A model generated the notes under the pieces. That model was not told the origin of the DNA. It did no database searches and was given only the letters and a program-made list of their open reading frames with translations. A stretch of 42,185 nt of DNA, from positions 1 through 42,185 of the IMG/VR virus record IMGVR_UViG_3300033141_001004, one strand, 5' to 3'. Made by a program: the position numbers and the translations under genes. Position 1 is the first letter of the stretch; the number at the start of each line of letters is the position of its first letter. Below, piece by piece: positions 2,010-37,537 of the stretch. This DNA is from a virus.

Positions 2010-2475
2010 CGCCTTCTCCTTTCAGGGCTTGCCAGCACTTATAACAGCATCTTCTGACTTGCCCACCTAGCTTCAATACCCTATCGTAGTGCGCATGACA
2101 TATCTCGCCACCCCATGCGTATATCCTTTCCCTCTCCGCCTTCTGGATAATGGGGATGACAGCTTTAGCTGCTTTGCAATAACAGCATGGGTCGTCTACT
2201 GGGTCTTTGAAGTATTCGGCTAGTTTGTCTGCAACCTCCACTTCTAGTCTCTCATCACTAATCACTGGCAATTCATCTGGTATAGGGGATAGGGAGAGGA
2301 TAGTAGTTACACATTCATCCGTTTTTTTCTGCATAACTTCAAGACAATAACTGTTCCCTGTATAATGTTCATCTGTGGTATAGCTCGCCCACCAATTTGC
2401 GAAGCGTTGCAACTCTTGACGTATCCCCGCTATCGCTTCCCTCTTGTTCTCTATTGCTTCTTCTCTACTTGTCAT
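2002..2475 (-). CDS. Cys-rich hypothetical protein with SREEAI start (157 aa)
   Basis: It begins MTSREEAIENKR and so shares the repeated 5' coding block found at five gene starts in this operon. Cysteines occur as CCYC (about 97-100) and CHAH with RCCYKC near residues 128-147, which suggests a metal site. The tail WQALKGEGDD is shared with the gene downstream. No catalytic motif is visible. Confidence 0.8.
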   Translation of the reverse strand: MTSREEAIENKREAIAGIRQELQRFANWWASYTTDEHYTGNSYCLEVMQKKTDECVTTILSLSPIPDELPVISDERLEVEVADKLAEYFKDPVDDPCCYCKAAKAVIPIIQKAERERIYAWGGEICHAHYDRVLKLGGQVRRCCYKCWQALKGEGDD

Positions 2476-2819: not shown

Positions 2820-3401
2820 TTAGCCTCCCAAATCTATATCACTTTCTACTTCATTTCCCCAACAATCCCAACCTTCTGCTTTTTGACGTGCAAATAGTTC
2901 AATGCGTGGCAAGTCACCGCAAAGTTCAACAATTTTATCCCTAACTTCATAGGGTTTTTGGCTATGCCCTTCCCTTGGAGAGAGTATAACTTGCGAAATA
3001 CTCCTAGTTTGCCTATTTAATTTCCCGCCCGCAACCAAACACCCTAGACAAAGTTCCGCATTGGAAGCAGTCCAATGCCCACCTCCGAAAAACGGGGCAA
3101 AGTTTTTCCTGTTTGTCTTGACCCACGTAAAGGCAACCGTTTTATATTCAAAACCCCACGATTTTATTACACGGAAAGATTGTTCAAGGAAAGGCGGAGT
3201 AACCCACAGGAATAACTTGCAATCCCTATCCGCTATTGAACTAACATCAAGGTCGCATATTTCGTTTATATCCATTGTCTTATAATGGTTTTCAGCCCTG
3301 AATTGTGCCAACTCCCCTGCTTCGCTCCAAACCTTATAAGCCCAAGGCGGGTCAGCATATATTATTTGGTACTTCTTTTGGATTGCTTCTTCTCTACTCA
3401 T
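2820..3401 (-). CDS. MT-A70 family adenine-N6 methyltransferase
   Basis: Transfers a methyl group from S-adenosylmethionine to adenine N6, presumably in phage DNA. The catalytic DPPW sits at residues 17-20 (IIYADPPWAYK). Family features follow: a LFLWVTPPFL strand, a WGFEYKTVAFTWVK strand, and SPREGHSQKPYEVRDKI, which is typical of MT-A70 phage enzymes. At 193 residues it is close to the usual phage length (180-220). DPPW comes unusually near the start because the SREEAI block (residues 2-7) forms the N-terminus. A likely use is protection from host restriction, or methyl marking. Confidence 0.93.
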   Translation of the reverse strand: MSREEAIQKKYQIIYADPPWAYKVWSEAGELAQFRAENHYKTMDINEICDLDVSSIADRDCKLFLWVTPPFLEQSFRVIKSWGFEYKTVAFTWVKTNRKNFAPFFGGGHWTASNAELCLGCLVAGGKLNRQTRSISQVILSPREGHSQKPYEVRDKIVELCGDLPRIELFARQKAEGWDCWGNEVESDIDLGG

Positions 3402-3404
3402 TGG

Positions 3405-3824
3405 TTACACTCCTTTGTTATGGGGGAAGGTATTGCCCTTAAGAACTGCCCTCCGAAGTTTCTCATTGTCAATTATAGTATTTCTGGTGAATAGGTAATA
3501 ACCCACAATCTTATCGACAGACACCTCTTTTAGATAATGGACTTGCCAATTAGCTGGTAATCCCTCAGTTTTGAATACTACCTCAAATATATGAAGCCCC
3601 CCATACCATATTGCATCCTCTAGGTGCCTAGCAAACCAAGTACCTGCCCTAAAACCTTCCCTAAGGATATTATTAGCCGATGCCTCATTTGTTCCATGAA
3701 AACAGATACATTCTGGCATTATCCTTTCTAAAAACTCTCCACATTCAGGGCATCTTTTTACATTACGATAACGAAGCTCATTATAACCGCAAGCGTAACA
3801 TTGCACTTGGTAATAACTTGGCAT
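3405..3824 (-). CDS. Zinc ribbon fused to ADP-ribosyltransferase-like fold (139 aa)
   Basis: The N-terminus holds a four-Cys ribbon (C9, C12, C25, C28). The rest has HGT at 43-45, a helix with NNILREGF, then GTWFARHLEDAIWYGG. This pattern (HGT, I-x-x-x-G, GT-x-FA) resembles the NAD-binding core of KptA/PARP-type ADP-ribosyltransferase folds. The third catalytic residue is not obvious, so activity is uncertain. The ATG at 3824 follows GGGGGGAG in the overlapping minigene. Possible roles are modification of host protein or nucleic acid; it could also be a catalytically dead binding domain. Confidence 0.55.
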   Translation of the reverse strand: MPSYYQVQCYACGYNELRYRNVKRCPECGEFLERIMPECICFHGTNEASANNILREGFRAGTWFARHLEDAIWYGGLHIFEVVFKTEGLPANWQVHYLKEVSVDKIVGYYLFTRNTIIDNEKLRRAVLKGNTFPHNKGV

Positions 3825-3859: not shown

Positions 3860-4074
3860 TGTTTGCCTCCAATCTCGTATTCATCATCCCCACAATTAGG
3901 GCACTTCTCGACCATGTAGTTATCTCGCCACATCCGATATGTACCGCAGTTCCCACACTTTACAGAATCCTCTACTTGTTCAGAATATAGGGGTGCTTCG
4001 CATACGTCACACCCACACTCCTGAAAGCAATCGGGATAATCCCTTAAGTGAGGCTCGTAGCATTTCCTAAACAT
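3856..4074 (-). CDS. Small multi-zinc-ribbon protein (72 aa)
   Basis: Nine cysteines, including CGCDVC (20-25), CGNC (40-43) and CPNCG (58-62), consistent with one or two zinc ribbons. The start follows AAAGGAGG with a 7-base spacer. A nucleic-acid or protein adaptor is likely; no enzyme domain is present. It ends in ATGA overlap with the minigene. Confidence 0.8.
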   Translation of the reverse strand: MFRKCYEPHLRDYPDCFQECGCDVCEAPLYSEQVEDSVKCGNCGTYRMWRDNYMVEKCPNCGDDEYEIGGKQ

Positions 4075-4098
4075 CCTTGCACCTCCTTTGGTTTTACC

Positions 4099-4245
4099 TT
4101 ACTTATCGAGGGCTTCAATTATCTCCCGTGATAGTTGGTCGAGGTATCTATCAATGAAGTGAGGGACATTTGTTTCTGACCGATTCCAACACGGCGATTT
4201 CTTGATTATCTCTTTTAACCTCTCTATTGCTTCTTCTCTACTCAT
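4099..4245 (-). CDS. Small SREEAI protein (48 aa)
   Basis: ATG at 4245 after AAGGGAG, stop TAA at 4099. It begins MSREEAIERLKEIIKK and is predicted largely helical, ending in REIIEALDK. It contains a single Cys. It directly follows the 286-base structured non-coding segment, so its translation could be controlled by that RNA. The function is unknown. Confidence 0.75.
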   Translation of the reverse strand: MSREEAIERLKEIIKKSPCWNRSETNVPHFIDRYLDQLSREIIEALDK

Positions 4246-4268
4246 TGGTTTGTCTCCCTTGATTTATG

Positions 4269-4456
4269 GCTCTGGGGGCTGGTCTTACCCAAACGGGTCT
4301 CTTAATGAGATGCGTCTAAAAAAGCATTAACCCCCGACCCCCAGAGCTTTTGCCAGCCATGTTAGGAATGCTACCACTAATCTCGTTTACTTTCGGTGCG
4401 TGGCATCCTTCTAACCCGATTTGACGCCTAACACTTTGCCCTTTCGGGTGGCTGGC
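4269..4456 (-). ncRNA. Structured RNA segment, two adjacent long-stem domains
   Basis: The 286-base gap 4246-4531 holds no convincing gene. Read leftward it has a domain closed by seven perfect pairs (4450-4456 with 4352-4358). Inside that lie a CCC-GAAA-GGG tetraloop hairpin and an imperfect long helix built from GTTAG/CTAAC, ATGC/GCAT and CCAC/GTGG. A second domain four bases on is closed by ten perfect pairs (4338-4347 with 4269-4278). No T-run follows, so it is not an ordinary terminator. It is co-oriented with the operon; a leader, an attenuator or a free small RNA are all possible. I do not recognise a known family. Confidence 0.55.
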
Positions 4457-7591: not shown

Positions 7592-7757
7592 GTTCTAAGA
7601 TTTCAAATTAGGCGTAAGCACCCAGCCACTAATTAAGTGGAGTGGCGAAATCGTTAAAGACGCTTAGTAGGGCAGGCTGCCGCCTATGGGCGACACCCTG
7701 TTCCGAAAGGTTAAATGAGCTTAACCATCTGGGGGTGGAAGTCCCCTAGCTCCACTT
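7583..7757 (+). ncRNA. Structured leader RNA with alternative stems
   Basis: P1 is eight perfect pairs (GCTGGGTG 7583-7590 with 7619-7626). The segment AAGTGGAG (7635-7642) can pair with CTCCACTT (7750-7757), closing a 123-base domain. Its bases also take part in, or lie within the loop of, local hairpins formed by CCACT 7626-7630 or GCCACT 7625-7630, so the two states exclude each other. Inside lie CGCC-TATG-GGCG (7681-7692), a CCGAAAGG tetraloop, GGTTAA/TTAACC (7709-7726) and GGGG/CCCC (7731-7746). The small gene at 7769 starts 12 bases after. No known family recognised. Confidence 0.6.
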
Positions 7758-7768
7758 TAAGGATTGAG

Positions 7769-7936
7769 ATGCACTTTAGAATAAATGGGTTTAAGAAGTA
7801 TAGATTGCCCAATCCGCCTAAAAAGACCACCTCATCTTGGGTAGTGGGGCATCAGGTTCTCTTCTATTACAAATTGGACTGGTGTCATTTAACCGAACAT
7901 TGGATGGTAGACCCGTATATAATGTATCTTAATTGA
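7769..7936 (+). CDS. Small basic/aromatic protein downstream of the structured leader (55 aa)
   Basis: ATG at 7769 after AAGGA. Begins MHFRINGFKKYRLPNPPKK, then aromatic strands (VVGHQVLFYYKLDWCH). The basic patch and prolines suit nucleic-acid binding, without proof. A longer reading of the frame from 7715 would run through the hairpins and is less likely. Its ribosome site is next to the switchable stem. Confidence 0.6.
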   Translation: MHFRINGFKKYRLPNPPKKTTSSWVVGHQVLFYYKLDWCHLTEHWMVDPYIMYLN

Positions 7937-7947
7937 TGTAGCGGACG

Positions 7948-8024
7948 TGCGGAGTGGAGCAGTGGTTTAGCTCACTAGGCTCATAACCTAGAGGTCGGAG
8001 GTTCAAATCCTCCCTCCGCTACCA
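7948..8024 (+). tRNA. tRNA-Met(CAT), initiator-like, CCA encoded
   Basis: A full cloverleaf of 77 bases: acceptor TGCGGAG with CTCCGCT, D-stem GAGC/GCTC, anticodon arm CTAGG-CTCATAA-CCTAG, T-arm GGAGG-TTCAAAT-CCTCC, then ACCA. Initiator features are an unpaired 1:72 position (U:U here), A11:U24 in the D-stem, and the TGGAGCAG opening of bacterial fMet tRNAs. The anticodon stem keeps two of the three usual G:C pairs (30:40 and 31:39); 29:41 is A:U. An elongator Met or Ile2 tRNA is less likely given A11:U24 and the mismatch. Confidence 0.93.
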
Positions 8025-8036
8025 TTGTGAATTGAT

Positions 8037-8264
8037 ATGAAACAATCAGAGAAGTGGTTATTCAAAGACAGGGAAGCCCTAACCTCAATAGATAAGGGCA
8101 TGAAAGAGTCAAAGAGCGGACAAGTGGTGAAGCGTGGCTCATTTGCCCAATGGTGTCCCCAACATGGTTATCCTGAGCCTTGTGTTAAGTGCAATGGCAT
8201 GACGGCGGAGGAAAGGGAGGAATTTTTTAGGAGTCTGGCGGAAGCCGTAAGCAATGAAGAATAA
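8037..8264 (+). CDS. Small hypothetical protein with HxC / CxxC motif (75 aa)
   Basis: Begins 12 bases after the tRNA and has no evident ribosome binding site, so the start is uncertain. The N-terminal half (DREALTSIDKGMKESKSGQVV) is helical with a GQVV turn, like some small antitoxin tails. The middle has WCPQHGYPEPCVKC, a probable metal site. Function unknown. Confidence 0.6.
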   Translation: MKQSEKWLFKDREALTSIDKGMKESKSGQVVKRGSFAQWCPQHGYPEPCVKCNGMTAEEREEFFRSLAEAVSNEE

Positions 8265-8451
8265 GGGTGTAATCAAAAAAGAAGCACAGATTCCCTTTCC
8301 GGAGTGGAAGCGTAAAGCATTAAAAATCTCAAACTGGAATATAACTCACTTCATACCCATTAAAACTTTACACGAGATGTATGGTGATGATTTATCTTTA
8401 ATTAATTATTCCAAGCCTGACTATGATGACAACAATGGTAAACCAATTTAG
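8254..8451 (+). CDS. Small basic hypothetical protein (65 aa)
   Basis: Overlaps the previous gene by 11 bases. A basic N-terminus (KNKGVIKKEAQ) and an acidic, Asn-rich C-terminus (SKPDYDDNNGKPI). No motif. Last gene before the terminator at 8515. Confidence 0.6.
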   Translation: MKNKGVIKKEAQIPFPEWKRKALKISNWNITHFIPIKTLHEMYGDDLSLINYSKPDYDDNNGKPI

Positions 8452-8514
8452 ACGCAATACGATTAGATTCTAGTGGCATTAAAAGATAAAGTAATACTAT
8501 TGGTCAAATAAAAT

Positions 8515-36131: not shown

Positions 36132-36881
36132 TTAATTATCAAACATAATACATTGAGCATCATTTACTTTGGGTTCACCCTTGCGAGAAAGCCAGTATCG
36201 CCAAGTGGCTTCATCAAACTTTCTAAGAAATGCCCTGTGCCACGCTTCGGCTAGTTTCGGGAAGCGCTTTATTTGCACCCTCCCTTGTTTCTCTGTACCC
36301 ATCGGGCAAAGGACACAACCAAGCCTCTTAAATAATGGCTTGCCATCTGCCCCTAGTTCATCATAGAGCGAACAATACGGCAAGTTATTCATGTGTATGT
36401 ATTCCCATACTTCTTTATCTGTCCAATCTATAATCGGGTTAAGGAACCAAGTCATATCATCTTTAGTACAGGCCTCGAAGTAACGGCGGGCTTTTCTTTG
36501 GGGTGATTCTTGCCATCGCACCCCTTGTATAATAATCCCTCCCCTATTTATCTCTTTAAGCAAACGGCAACACCAACGTCTTTGGCGAGTCGGATACCCT
36601 TGAGTTTCAAACCATCTCCAAAATGACCTCTCGGGTTTGCACCATTCTACATCGGGATGATAGTTCCTGATAAACTGGACTAATTCAGGGGCATCTAACC
36701 CCGTAACTGCATAATGAGATTTATATGGTATCCCAGAAACTTCACACAGGTGTTTAGCAGCTATACTATCTTTCCCCCCGCTAAAAGCAAGGTTCGCCTC
36801 AATATATACGTGTGTTTGTAGTCTCTTAATCGCCACTTCCACCTTATTCAATCCAGCAAAGTTAAGTTGTGCTAAGCCCAC
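36132..36881 (-). CDS. PAPS reductase-like PP-loop protein (249 aa)
   Basis: The ATP-pyrophosphatase loop SGGKDS is at 34-39. WCC (103-105) plus GCVLCP (188-193) could bind an iron-sulfur cluster as in CysH or DndC. LNPIIDWTDKEVWEYI is the conserved C-terminal segment of CysH-like phage proteins. Sulfur chemistry on nucleic acid or nucleotides is possible; no other dnd gene is visible. Neighbours are two deoxyribosyltransferase-fold genes. Confidence 0.85.
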   Translation of the reverse strand: MGLAQLNFAGLNKVEVAIKRLQTHVYIEANLAFSGGKDSIAAKHLCEVSGIPYKSHYAVTGLDAPELVQFIRNYHPDVEWCKPERSFWRWFETQGYPTRQRRWCCRLLKEINRGGIIIQGVRWQESPQRKARRYFEACTKDDMTWFLNPIIDWTDKEVWEYIHMNNLPYCSLYDELGADGKPLFKRLGCVLCPMGTEKQGRVQIKRFPKLAEAWHRAFLRKFDEATWRYWLSRKGEPKVNDAQCIMFDN

Positions 36882-37224
36882 TTAAATCCTCCACAGCCTT
36901 GCGGAAACAAGAATAAACCCTTTGGGAACACGCACAAAGAAAGGCGTTAATTCTATCATGCTCGTCAACATACCAAACTGGAATCCCTAGAATAGTTGCC
37001 CATCCGATTTCTTTGGCAAGCCCTAACCCCGAAGGATTTTCTAACTCAAAATAGGCAAAAACTAAATCGCAGGTTTTCATAGCTTCAATTTCTTGCAAAG
37101 TCCATTTATAGGCGAACCTTTGGTCAGCATCTGCCATAGGGTCAAAATATGTATGCTTATTCGCAATCTTCTTGACTTCTTCCTGCCAACCCGAATGAAA
37201 CCCACCAGCTAAATATATTTCCAT
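36862..37224 (-). CDS. Nucleoside deoxyribosyltransferase-like protein 1 (120 aa)
   Basis: ATG at 37224, preceded by GGCGGTGGGATGAA. MEIYLAGGFHSGWQ, FDPMADADQ, TCDLVFAYFELENPSGLGLAKEIGWA and GIPVWYV follow the fold's nucleotide-binding strand, D-x-V-x-A-x-x-E and final strand. Catalysis (base exchange or hydrolysis of nucleotides) is not certain. It overlaps the PP-loop gene by 20 bases. Confidence 0.75.
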   Translation of the reverse strand: MEIYLAGGFHSGWQEEVKKIANKHTYFDPMADADQRFAYKWTLQEIEAMKTCDLVFAYFELENPSGLGLAKEIGWATILGIPVWYVDEHDRINAFLCACSQRVYSCFRKAVEDLSGLSTT

Positions 37225-37225
37225 T

Positions 37226-37537
37226 TCATCCCACCGCCTTAATTTCTCCCCATGAATAGACTGGTATACCAAGTTTCCGAGCTACCTTTACTTCCAAATC
37301 ACCGCCTTTACTCTCGCCATCTAATCTCAAAACACAATCTACCCTTGCTAATAGAGCTAAGTCAATCTTCATCCAATCATCCCATGACTTTGGTGATATG
37401 AAGTGCCAAAAATGAGTTAGGTGTGGAATGAGTGGGATATGCCCCATTTCTAGAAGCGCATCACCAGTAAGGCAAGCTCTCCTAACATTCTCCCCTGTAT
37501 CGCCGTTTGTATAGGGCGATGAAACATAGACTATCAA
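37226..37537 (-). CDS. Nucleoside deoxyribosyltransferase-like protein 2, DUF4406 type (103 aa)
   Basis: MIVYVSSPYTNGDTGENVRRA, GHIPLIPHLTHFW, IDLALLARVDCVLRLDGESKGGDLEVKVA and a final GIPVYSW match the DUF4406/YtoQ-like branch of the same fold. Often in phages beside nucleotide metabolism genes. Placed head to tail with its relative. Confidence 0.87.
   Translation of the reverse strand: MIVYVSSPYTNGDTGENVRRACLTGDALLEMGHIPLIPHLTHFWHFISPKSWDDWMKIDLALLARVDCVLRLDGESKGGDLEVKVARKLGIPVYSWGEIKAVG

Follow-up and report, generated by a model that had tools for sequence, protein, structure and literature searches.

An initiator-type tRNA with an A29:U41 anticodon-stem pair encoded by a virus in IMG/VR

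The 42,185-base stretch of viral DNA analyzed here, hereafter the window (IMG/VR record IMGVR_UViG_3300033141_001004, positions 1 to 42,185), carries a single tRNA gene, which ARAGORN, applied to the whole window, located at 7948-8024 (+) and assigned to Met with the anticodon cat. Judged by its sequence, it is a phage copy of a bacterial initiator tRNA, one more member of a kind already known. We consider it best explained, with a probability of roughly 0.7, as a phage-encoded bacterial initiator tRNA that may keep up the initiator pool, its A29:U41 pair probably reflecting relaxed constraint.

Identity of the window tRNA

The RF00005 match of the gene reached 66.8 bits (E 1.5e-12; cut-off 29), which rules out a chance match for a 77-nt cloverleaf, and the 1:72 pair was flagged as non-standard in the Rfam alignment. 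All stems are intact, the variable loop is AGGUC, and the acceptor pairs read from the sequence after U1:U72 are G2:C71, C3:G70, G4:C69 and G5:C68. In the anticodon stem, A29:U41 replaces the third G:C pair. Thus, the U1:U72 mismatch, A11:U24, the CAT anticodon and two of three anticodon-stem G:C pairs listed in the original prediction were all recovered from the sequence, ARAGORN and Rfam.

Table 1. Coordinates of the window tRNA, its arms and the adjacent features.
Feature	Position	Strand	Evidence
tRNA-like element, unannotated, possible companion	7635..7758	+	fold, shuffles, covariance model
55-aa ORF, function unknown, between tRNA-like element and tRNA, same strand	7769..7936	+	
Initiator-type tRNA (tRNA-fMet, CAU), 77 nt, CCA encoded	7948..8024	+	sequence, ARAGORN, Rfam, E. 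coli comparison
Acceptor 5' strand UGCGGAG; U1 opposite U72 (8020), mismatch	7948..7954	+	sequence, Rfam alignment
D arm GAGC-AGUGGUUUA-GCUC, A11:U24	7957..7973	+	sequence
Anticodon arm CUAGG-CUCAUAA-CCUAG; A29:U41, G30:C40, G31:C39; CAU = 7982-7984	7975..7991	+	sequence, ARAGORN
T arm GGAGG-UUCAAAU-CCUCC	7997..8013	+	sequence
Acceptor 3' strand CUCCGCU, then discriminator A73	8014..8021	+	sequence
75-aa ORF, function unknown, just 3' of tRNA, same strand	8037..8264	+	

Formylation is favoured by a 1:72 mismatch, G2:C71, C3:G70 and A11:U24, whose roles as initiator determinants are described (PMC7949028); the three pairs are all present in the window tRNA. Alignment with E. coli K-12 tRNAs gave 60 identical positions out of 79 columns for the initiator metZ, against 49/79 for the elongator metU and 47/77 for ileX (Ile2). 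Initiator identity, as originally predicted, is therefore supported: metZ is the nearest of the three, all formylation and P-site determinants checked are present except G29:C41, and the elongator Met or Ile2 match named in advance as refuting was not seen. The idea of an elongator tRNA-Met or a TilS-modified tRNA-Ile2, to which the CAU anticodon and the bare ARAGORN label Met would be open, is strongly disfavoured by sequence and scarcely credible, as the hallmarks of both (G1:C72 and a GCUC/GAGC D stem) are replaced by U1:U72 and GAGC/GCUC and metZ is closest; these features and the lower metU and ileX identity led us to discard both candidates.

The window tRNA shares with E. coli metZ, metW and metV its length, the A11:U24 D stem, the CUCAUAA loop, G30:C40, G31:C39, the AGGUC variable loop, the UUCAAAU T loop, GCGG at positions 2-5 and A73-CCA. 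The E. coli initiators differ in having C1:A72, G29:C41 and another D-loop arrangement, where the window tRNA has U1:U72 and A29:U41.

The U1:U72 mismatch is ordinary, since at least 81 cellular initiator genes share it, several of them with A29:U41, in a pattern scan for U-starting initiators that returned at least 120 loci; its treatment as an oddity was dropped. Examples are the initiators of Luteibacter (L003), a Pseudomonadales genome (L109) and a Bacillota MAG (L108), all three of which retain G29:C41, unlike the window tRNA. The D loop of the Bacillota MAG initiator (AGUGGUUA) is similar to that of the window tRNA, a likeness too weak to claim as a host assignment. Conversely, alphaproteobacterial initiators and those of L005, L078 and L093 carry A29:U41, G30:C40 and G31:C39 as in the window, but within a UCAGG/CCUGA stem instead of CUAGG/CCUAG. 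An anticodon stem identical to that of the window was found in 33 viral contigs, 14 of these with U1:U72.

The 29:41 pair in viral and cellular initiators

A canonical fMet query matched 429 of 50,697 phage records, some of which are already annotated as tRNA-fMet. The expectation that initiators are rare in phages is thus a fair one, yet the kind is well known, and phage initiator tRNAs are, from these matches, a known minority kind. Pectobacterium phage CBB (tRNA26A), Cronobacter phage GAP32 and Erwinia phage SNUABM_47 encode initiators with A29:U41 like the window tRNA; theirs have a CAAGG/CCUUG stem and U:A at 1:72, and these large phages carry other tRNAs too.

To compare viruses with cells, we ran a pattern with A11:U24 and CUCAUAA fixed and positions 27-31 and 39-43 free on viral contigs and cellular genomes. 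The viral set comprised 101 distinct, well-folded tRNAs among the matches listed (L132-L251), all with the standard loop that the pattern requires, loop variants being uncounted. Among these matches, position 30:40 was G:C in 97/101 and 31:39 in 80/101, and 1:72 was non-Watson-Crick in 77/101 and G:C in 3/101. The 29:41 pair, by comparison, was A:U in 50, G:C in 31, U:A in 19 and C:A in one. C29:G41 was never found among the 101 viral initiators listed, though A:U and U:A were common, which hints at a residual constraint on viral 29:41.

Cellular initiators, among the matches listed, appear nearly always to carry G29:C41, with the exception of Alphaproteobacteria (A29:U41). G29:C41 was present in 117 of the 119 matching Bacteroidota genomes in the pattern scan; set against the viral counts (31 vs 70 in viruses, 117 vs 2 in Bacteroidota), this gives a Fisher p of ~5e-30 in a post hoc comparison, made after the data had been seen, with phylogeny not corrected and the viral sample uncorrected for relatedness. 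Host-derived copies at prophage edges may be present in the viral sample and would mask, not create, a difference between viruses and cells. Actinomycetota and Bacillota among the matches listed likewise had G29:C41, with exceptions in one and two genomes, respectively, and Pseudomonadota fell into an A29:U41 group and a G29:C41 group, whose Alphaproteobacteria-like and Gammaproteobacteria-like labels were inferred from the sequences. The U29:A41 form, counted in 0 of 398 Pseudomonadota genomes versus at least 120 viral contigs, seems almost absent from cells. A 29:41 pair of the viral kind was seen in rare cellular initiator-type tRNAs, those of two Bacteroidota genomes (G383, G415) and one of Actinomycetota (G664:C149); in the last, the pair sits in a second, odd copy, perhaps prophage-derived.

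Among named phages, A29:U41 or U29:A41 occurs in those of Pectobacterium, Cronobacter, Erwinia, Pseudomonas, Aeromonas, E. coli, Xanthomonas and Gordonia, and G29:C41 is retained in phages of Prevotella, Mycobacterium smegmatis and Campylobacter. G30:C40 was present in every named-phage initiator examined. Three G:C pairs do not appear to be a strict requirement for the initiator class; the window tRNA has two of the three, and A29:U41 is found in Alphaproteobacteria, other cells and half of the viral initiators listed (50/101).

In E. coli 70S complexes, 16S A1339 contacts G30:C40 by a type I A-minor interaction, and swapping this pair lowers initiation ~20-fold, while G1338 reaches 29:41 mainly via the 2'-OH of C41 (PMC11497404). 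Since the pair read most strictly by the ribosome is the one that viruses keep, the pattern points to viral initiators being selected for initiation rather than decaying, with the change at 29:41 tolerated. On this evidence the viral tRNAs seem to be functional initiators whose stem has been relaxed or altered, and the simplest account of the A29:U41 pair, typical of viral initiators, is that constraint has loosened at the one of the three pairs that is read least strictly. We also entertain, tentatively and with more doubt than belief, that viral initiators form a class, with the window tRNA as a member, which keeps G30:C40 and the 1:72 mismatch and in which selection would have systematically exchanged G29:C41 for A:U or for the U:A form that is almost absent from cells, for example to evade nucleases that recognise the host tRNA-fMet anticodon stem or to alter the stringency of initiation in infected cells.

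Proposed function and competing explanations

The presence of tRNA genes in phages is a long-standing puzzle. Codon usage cannot account for an initiator, which therefore directs attention to initiation capacity or to the replacement of an attacked host tRNA; the difference between viruses and cells at one pair, 29:41, would offer a simple molecular handle on the tRNA-replacement idea. From established biochemistry, the window tRNA would be charged by the host methionyl-tRNA synthetase via CAU, its unpaired 1:72 would allow formylation by the host formyltransferase, and EF-Tu would largely ignore it. Delivery by IF2 to the P site of the 30S subunit would then place G30:C40 in the grip of 16S A1339. 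With less confidence, we suggest that during infection it may maintain the initiator pool, replacing or supplementing host tRNA-fMet if this is cleaved or limiting. Its most likely function would be to supplement the initiators of the infected host or to stand in for them. Replacement of lost host tRNA-fMet appears plausible because VapC toxins of several bacteria cleave the anticodon loop of initiator tRNA, and extra copies of metZWV, which encodes tRNA-fMet, partly relieve their toxicity (PMC8522696). No formylation or RNA-repair gene was recognised among the window ORFs scanned.

A different reading takes the weakened 29:41 pair as an adaptation in itself, in which the altered stem would protect the viral tRNA from VapC-type nucleases recognising the anticodon stem-loop of host tRNA-fMet. 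We regard this as unlikely, although a departure from the cellular stem recurs in viruses unrelated to one another and the distribution of U29:A41 described above fits. The departure extends to phages whose hosts are expected to have G29:C41: CBB, GAP32, SNUABM_47, Milchi (Pseudomonas), Aeh1 (Aeromonas), ESCO9 (E. coli), DoCa5 (Xanthomonas) and GodonK (Gordonia). However, A29:U41 is native to Alphaproteobacteria, and we are aware of no nuclease that requires a particular 29:41 pair. Evasion of anticodon nucleases by phage tRNAs has indeed been proposed, but through loop mutations at the cut site (PMC10264068); such mutations are absent from the window tRNA, whose loop is the standard CUCAUAA, and escape by loop mutation is therefore not supported. 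That proposal concerns the tRNAs of mycobacteriophage cluster C, suggested to stand in for host tRNAs that nucleases attack, much as proposed for the window tRNA; they bear loop mutations where the window tRNA loop is wild type (PMC10264068).

Initiators are sporadic among phages, as would be expected of a passenger gene captured from a host and now drifting, of scant or no use to the phage. Capsid and terminase comparisons gave three viral contigs as the nearest relatives of the window virus, two of which are short fragments. No tRNA was found in any of the three, so the gene looks optional in this virus lineage. Against such a passenger stand the intact stems and encoded CCA of the window tRNA, and the viral class as a whole retains the 1:72 mismatch and G30:C40, which would not be expected under free drift; we consider this explanation quite improbable. 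A search for DNA relatives of the tRNA neighbourhood gave no convincing phage match, only weak, short matches in one related contig. The downstream 75-aa ORF led to no relatives, and neither the exact pattern of the window tRNA nor that of the D arm in the upstream element had a match in viral contigs.

The original prediction also raised a bias of initiation towards the phage's own GTG and TTG mRNAs. Start codons were estimated with a simple home-made gene choice, w/o curated annotation: of 68 estimated genes, 55 (81%) start with ATG, 10 (15%) with GTG and 3 (4%) with TTG, matching the bacterial average of 82/14/4% (PMC11497404). With GTG and TTG not in excess, this claim was abandoned. That the window tRNA shifts initiation to such starts is very improbable: a change of G30:C40 to C:G does alter start-codon discrimination (PMC11497404), but G30:C40 is intact in the window tRNA, and an initiator alone cannot distinguish phage from host mRNAs.

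Transfer RNA genes are frequent phage integration sites, which could suggest that a host tRNA gene was left behind here as the remnant of a prophage attachment site; this is next to excluded by the full length of the gene and by its CUAGG stem, recurrent in viral contigs as noted and unseen among the cellular matches listed, and no integrase was recognised among the window ORFs scanned.

The upstream tRNA-like element and other window genes

Upstream of the initiator tRNA, the element at 7635-7758 (+) comprises an acceptor, a Leu-like D arm (GGCGAAAUCGUUAAAGACGC), an extra-long anticodon arm, a 6-bp variable arm and a T-like arm with the loop UGGAAGU, and has no CCA. Its fold has a z of -2.45, and a comparable shape arose in 3/1000 shuffles. 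It was missed by ARAGORN and Rfam, and allowing introns or lowered thresholds in ARAGORN gave no sensible tRNA. A covariance model built from this single sequence matched, with E 0.003, an element of a second virus, L291, that lies 4 bases upstream of an initiator tRNA, scores 38.5 bits as an Rfam tRNA and is missed by ARAGORN as well. The window element is a possible companion of the initiator tRNA and a candidate relative of the L291-type elements; viral elements resembling it aligned too poorly with it for covariation analysis.

In related viral contigs, expanded tRNAs located only a few bases ahead of an initiator tRNA were seen in L291 at 8344-8470 (-), L190 at ~4243-4365 (+), L289 at ~2091-2212 (-) and L297 at 3981-4111 (+), with a similar element upstream of the initiator tRNA in L302 and L283. 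Those of L291 and L297 are 125-131 nt long, score above the Rfam tRNA cut-off and escape ARAGORN. The acceptor and mostly the T arm are conserved in expanded tRNAs, and the middle is wholly different between close relatives, as if repeatedly replaced. In another viral contig, L279, a tmRNA at 3352-3709 (+) (RF00023, 76.5 bits) precedes the initiator tRNA by ~1.9 kb.

Elsewhere in the window, an MT-A70 adenine methyltransferase is encoded at 2820-3401 (-) (PF05063, E 4e-27; PADLOC type II MTase, E 1.9e-66). A PAPS-reductase-like protein at 36132-36881 (-) (PF01507, E 6.5e-25; BrxP-like, E 2.7e-19) adjoins a weak nucleoside deoxyribosyltransferase-like protein at 36862-37272 (-), a pair possibly involved in DNA modification or sulfur chemistry.
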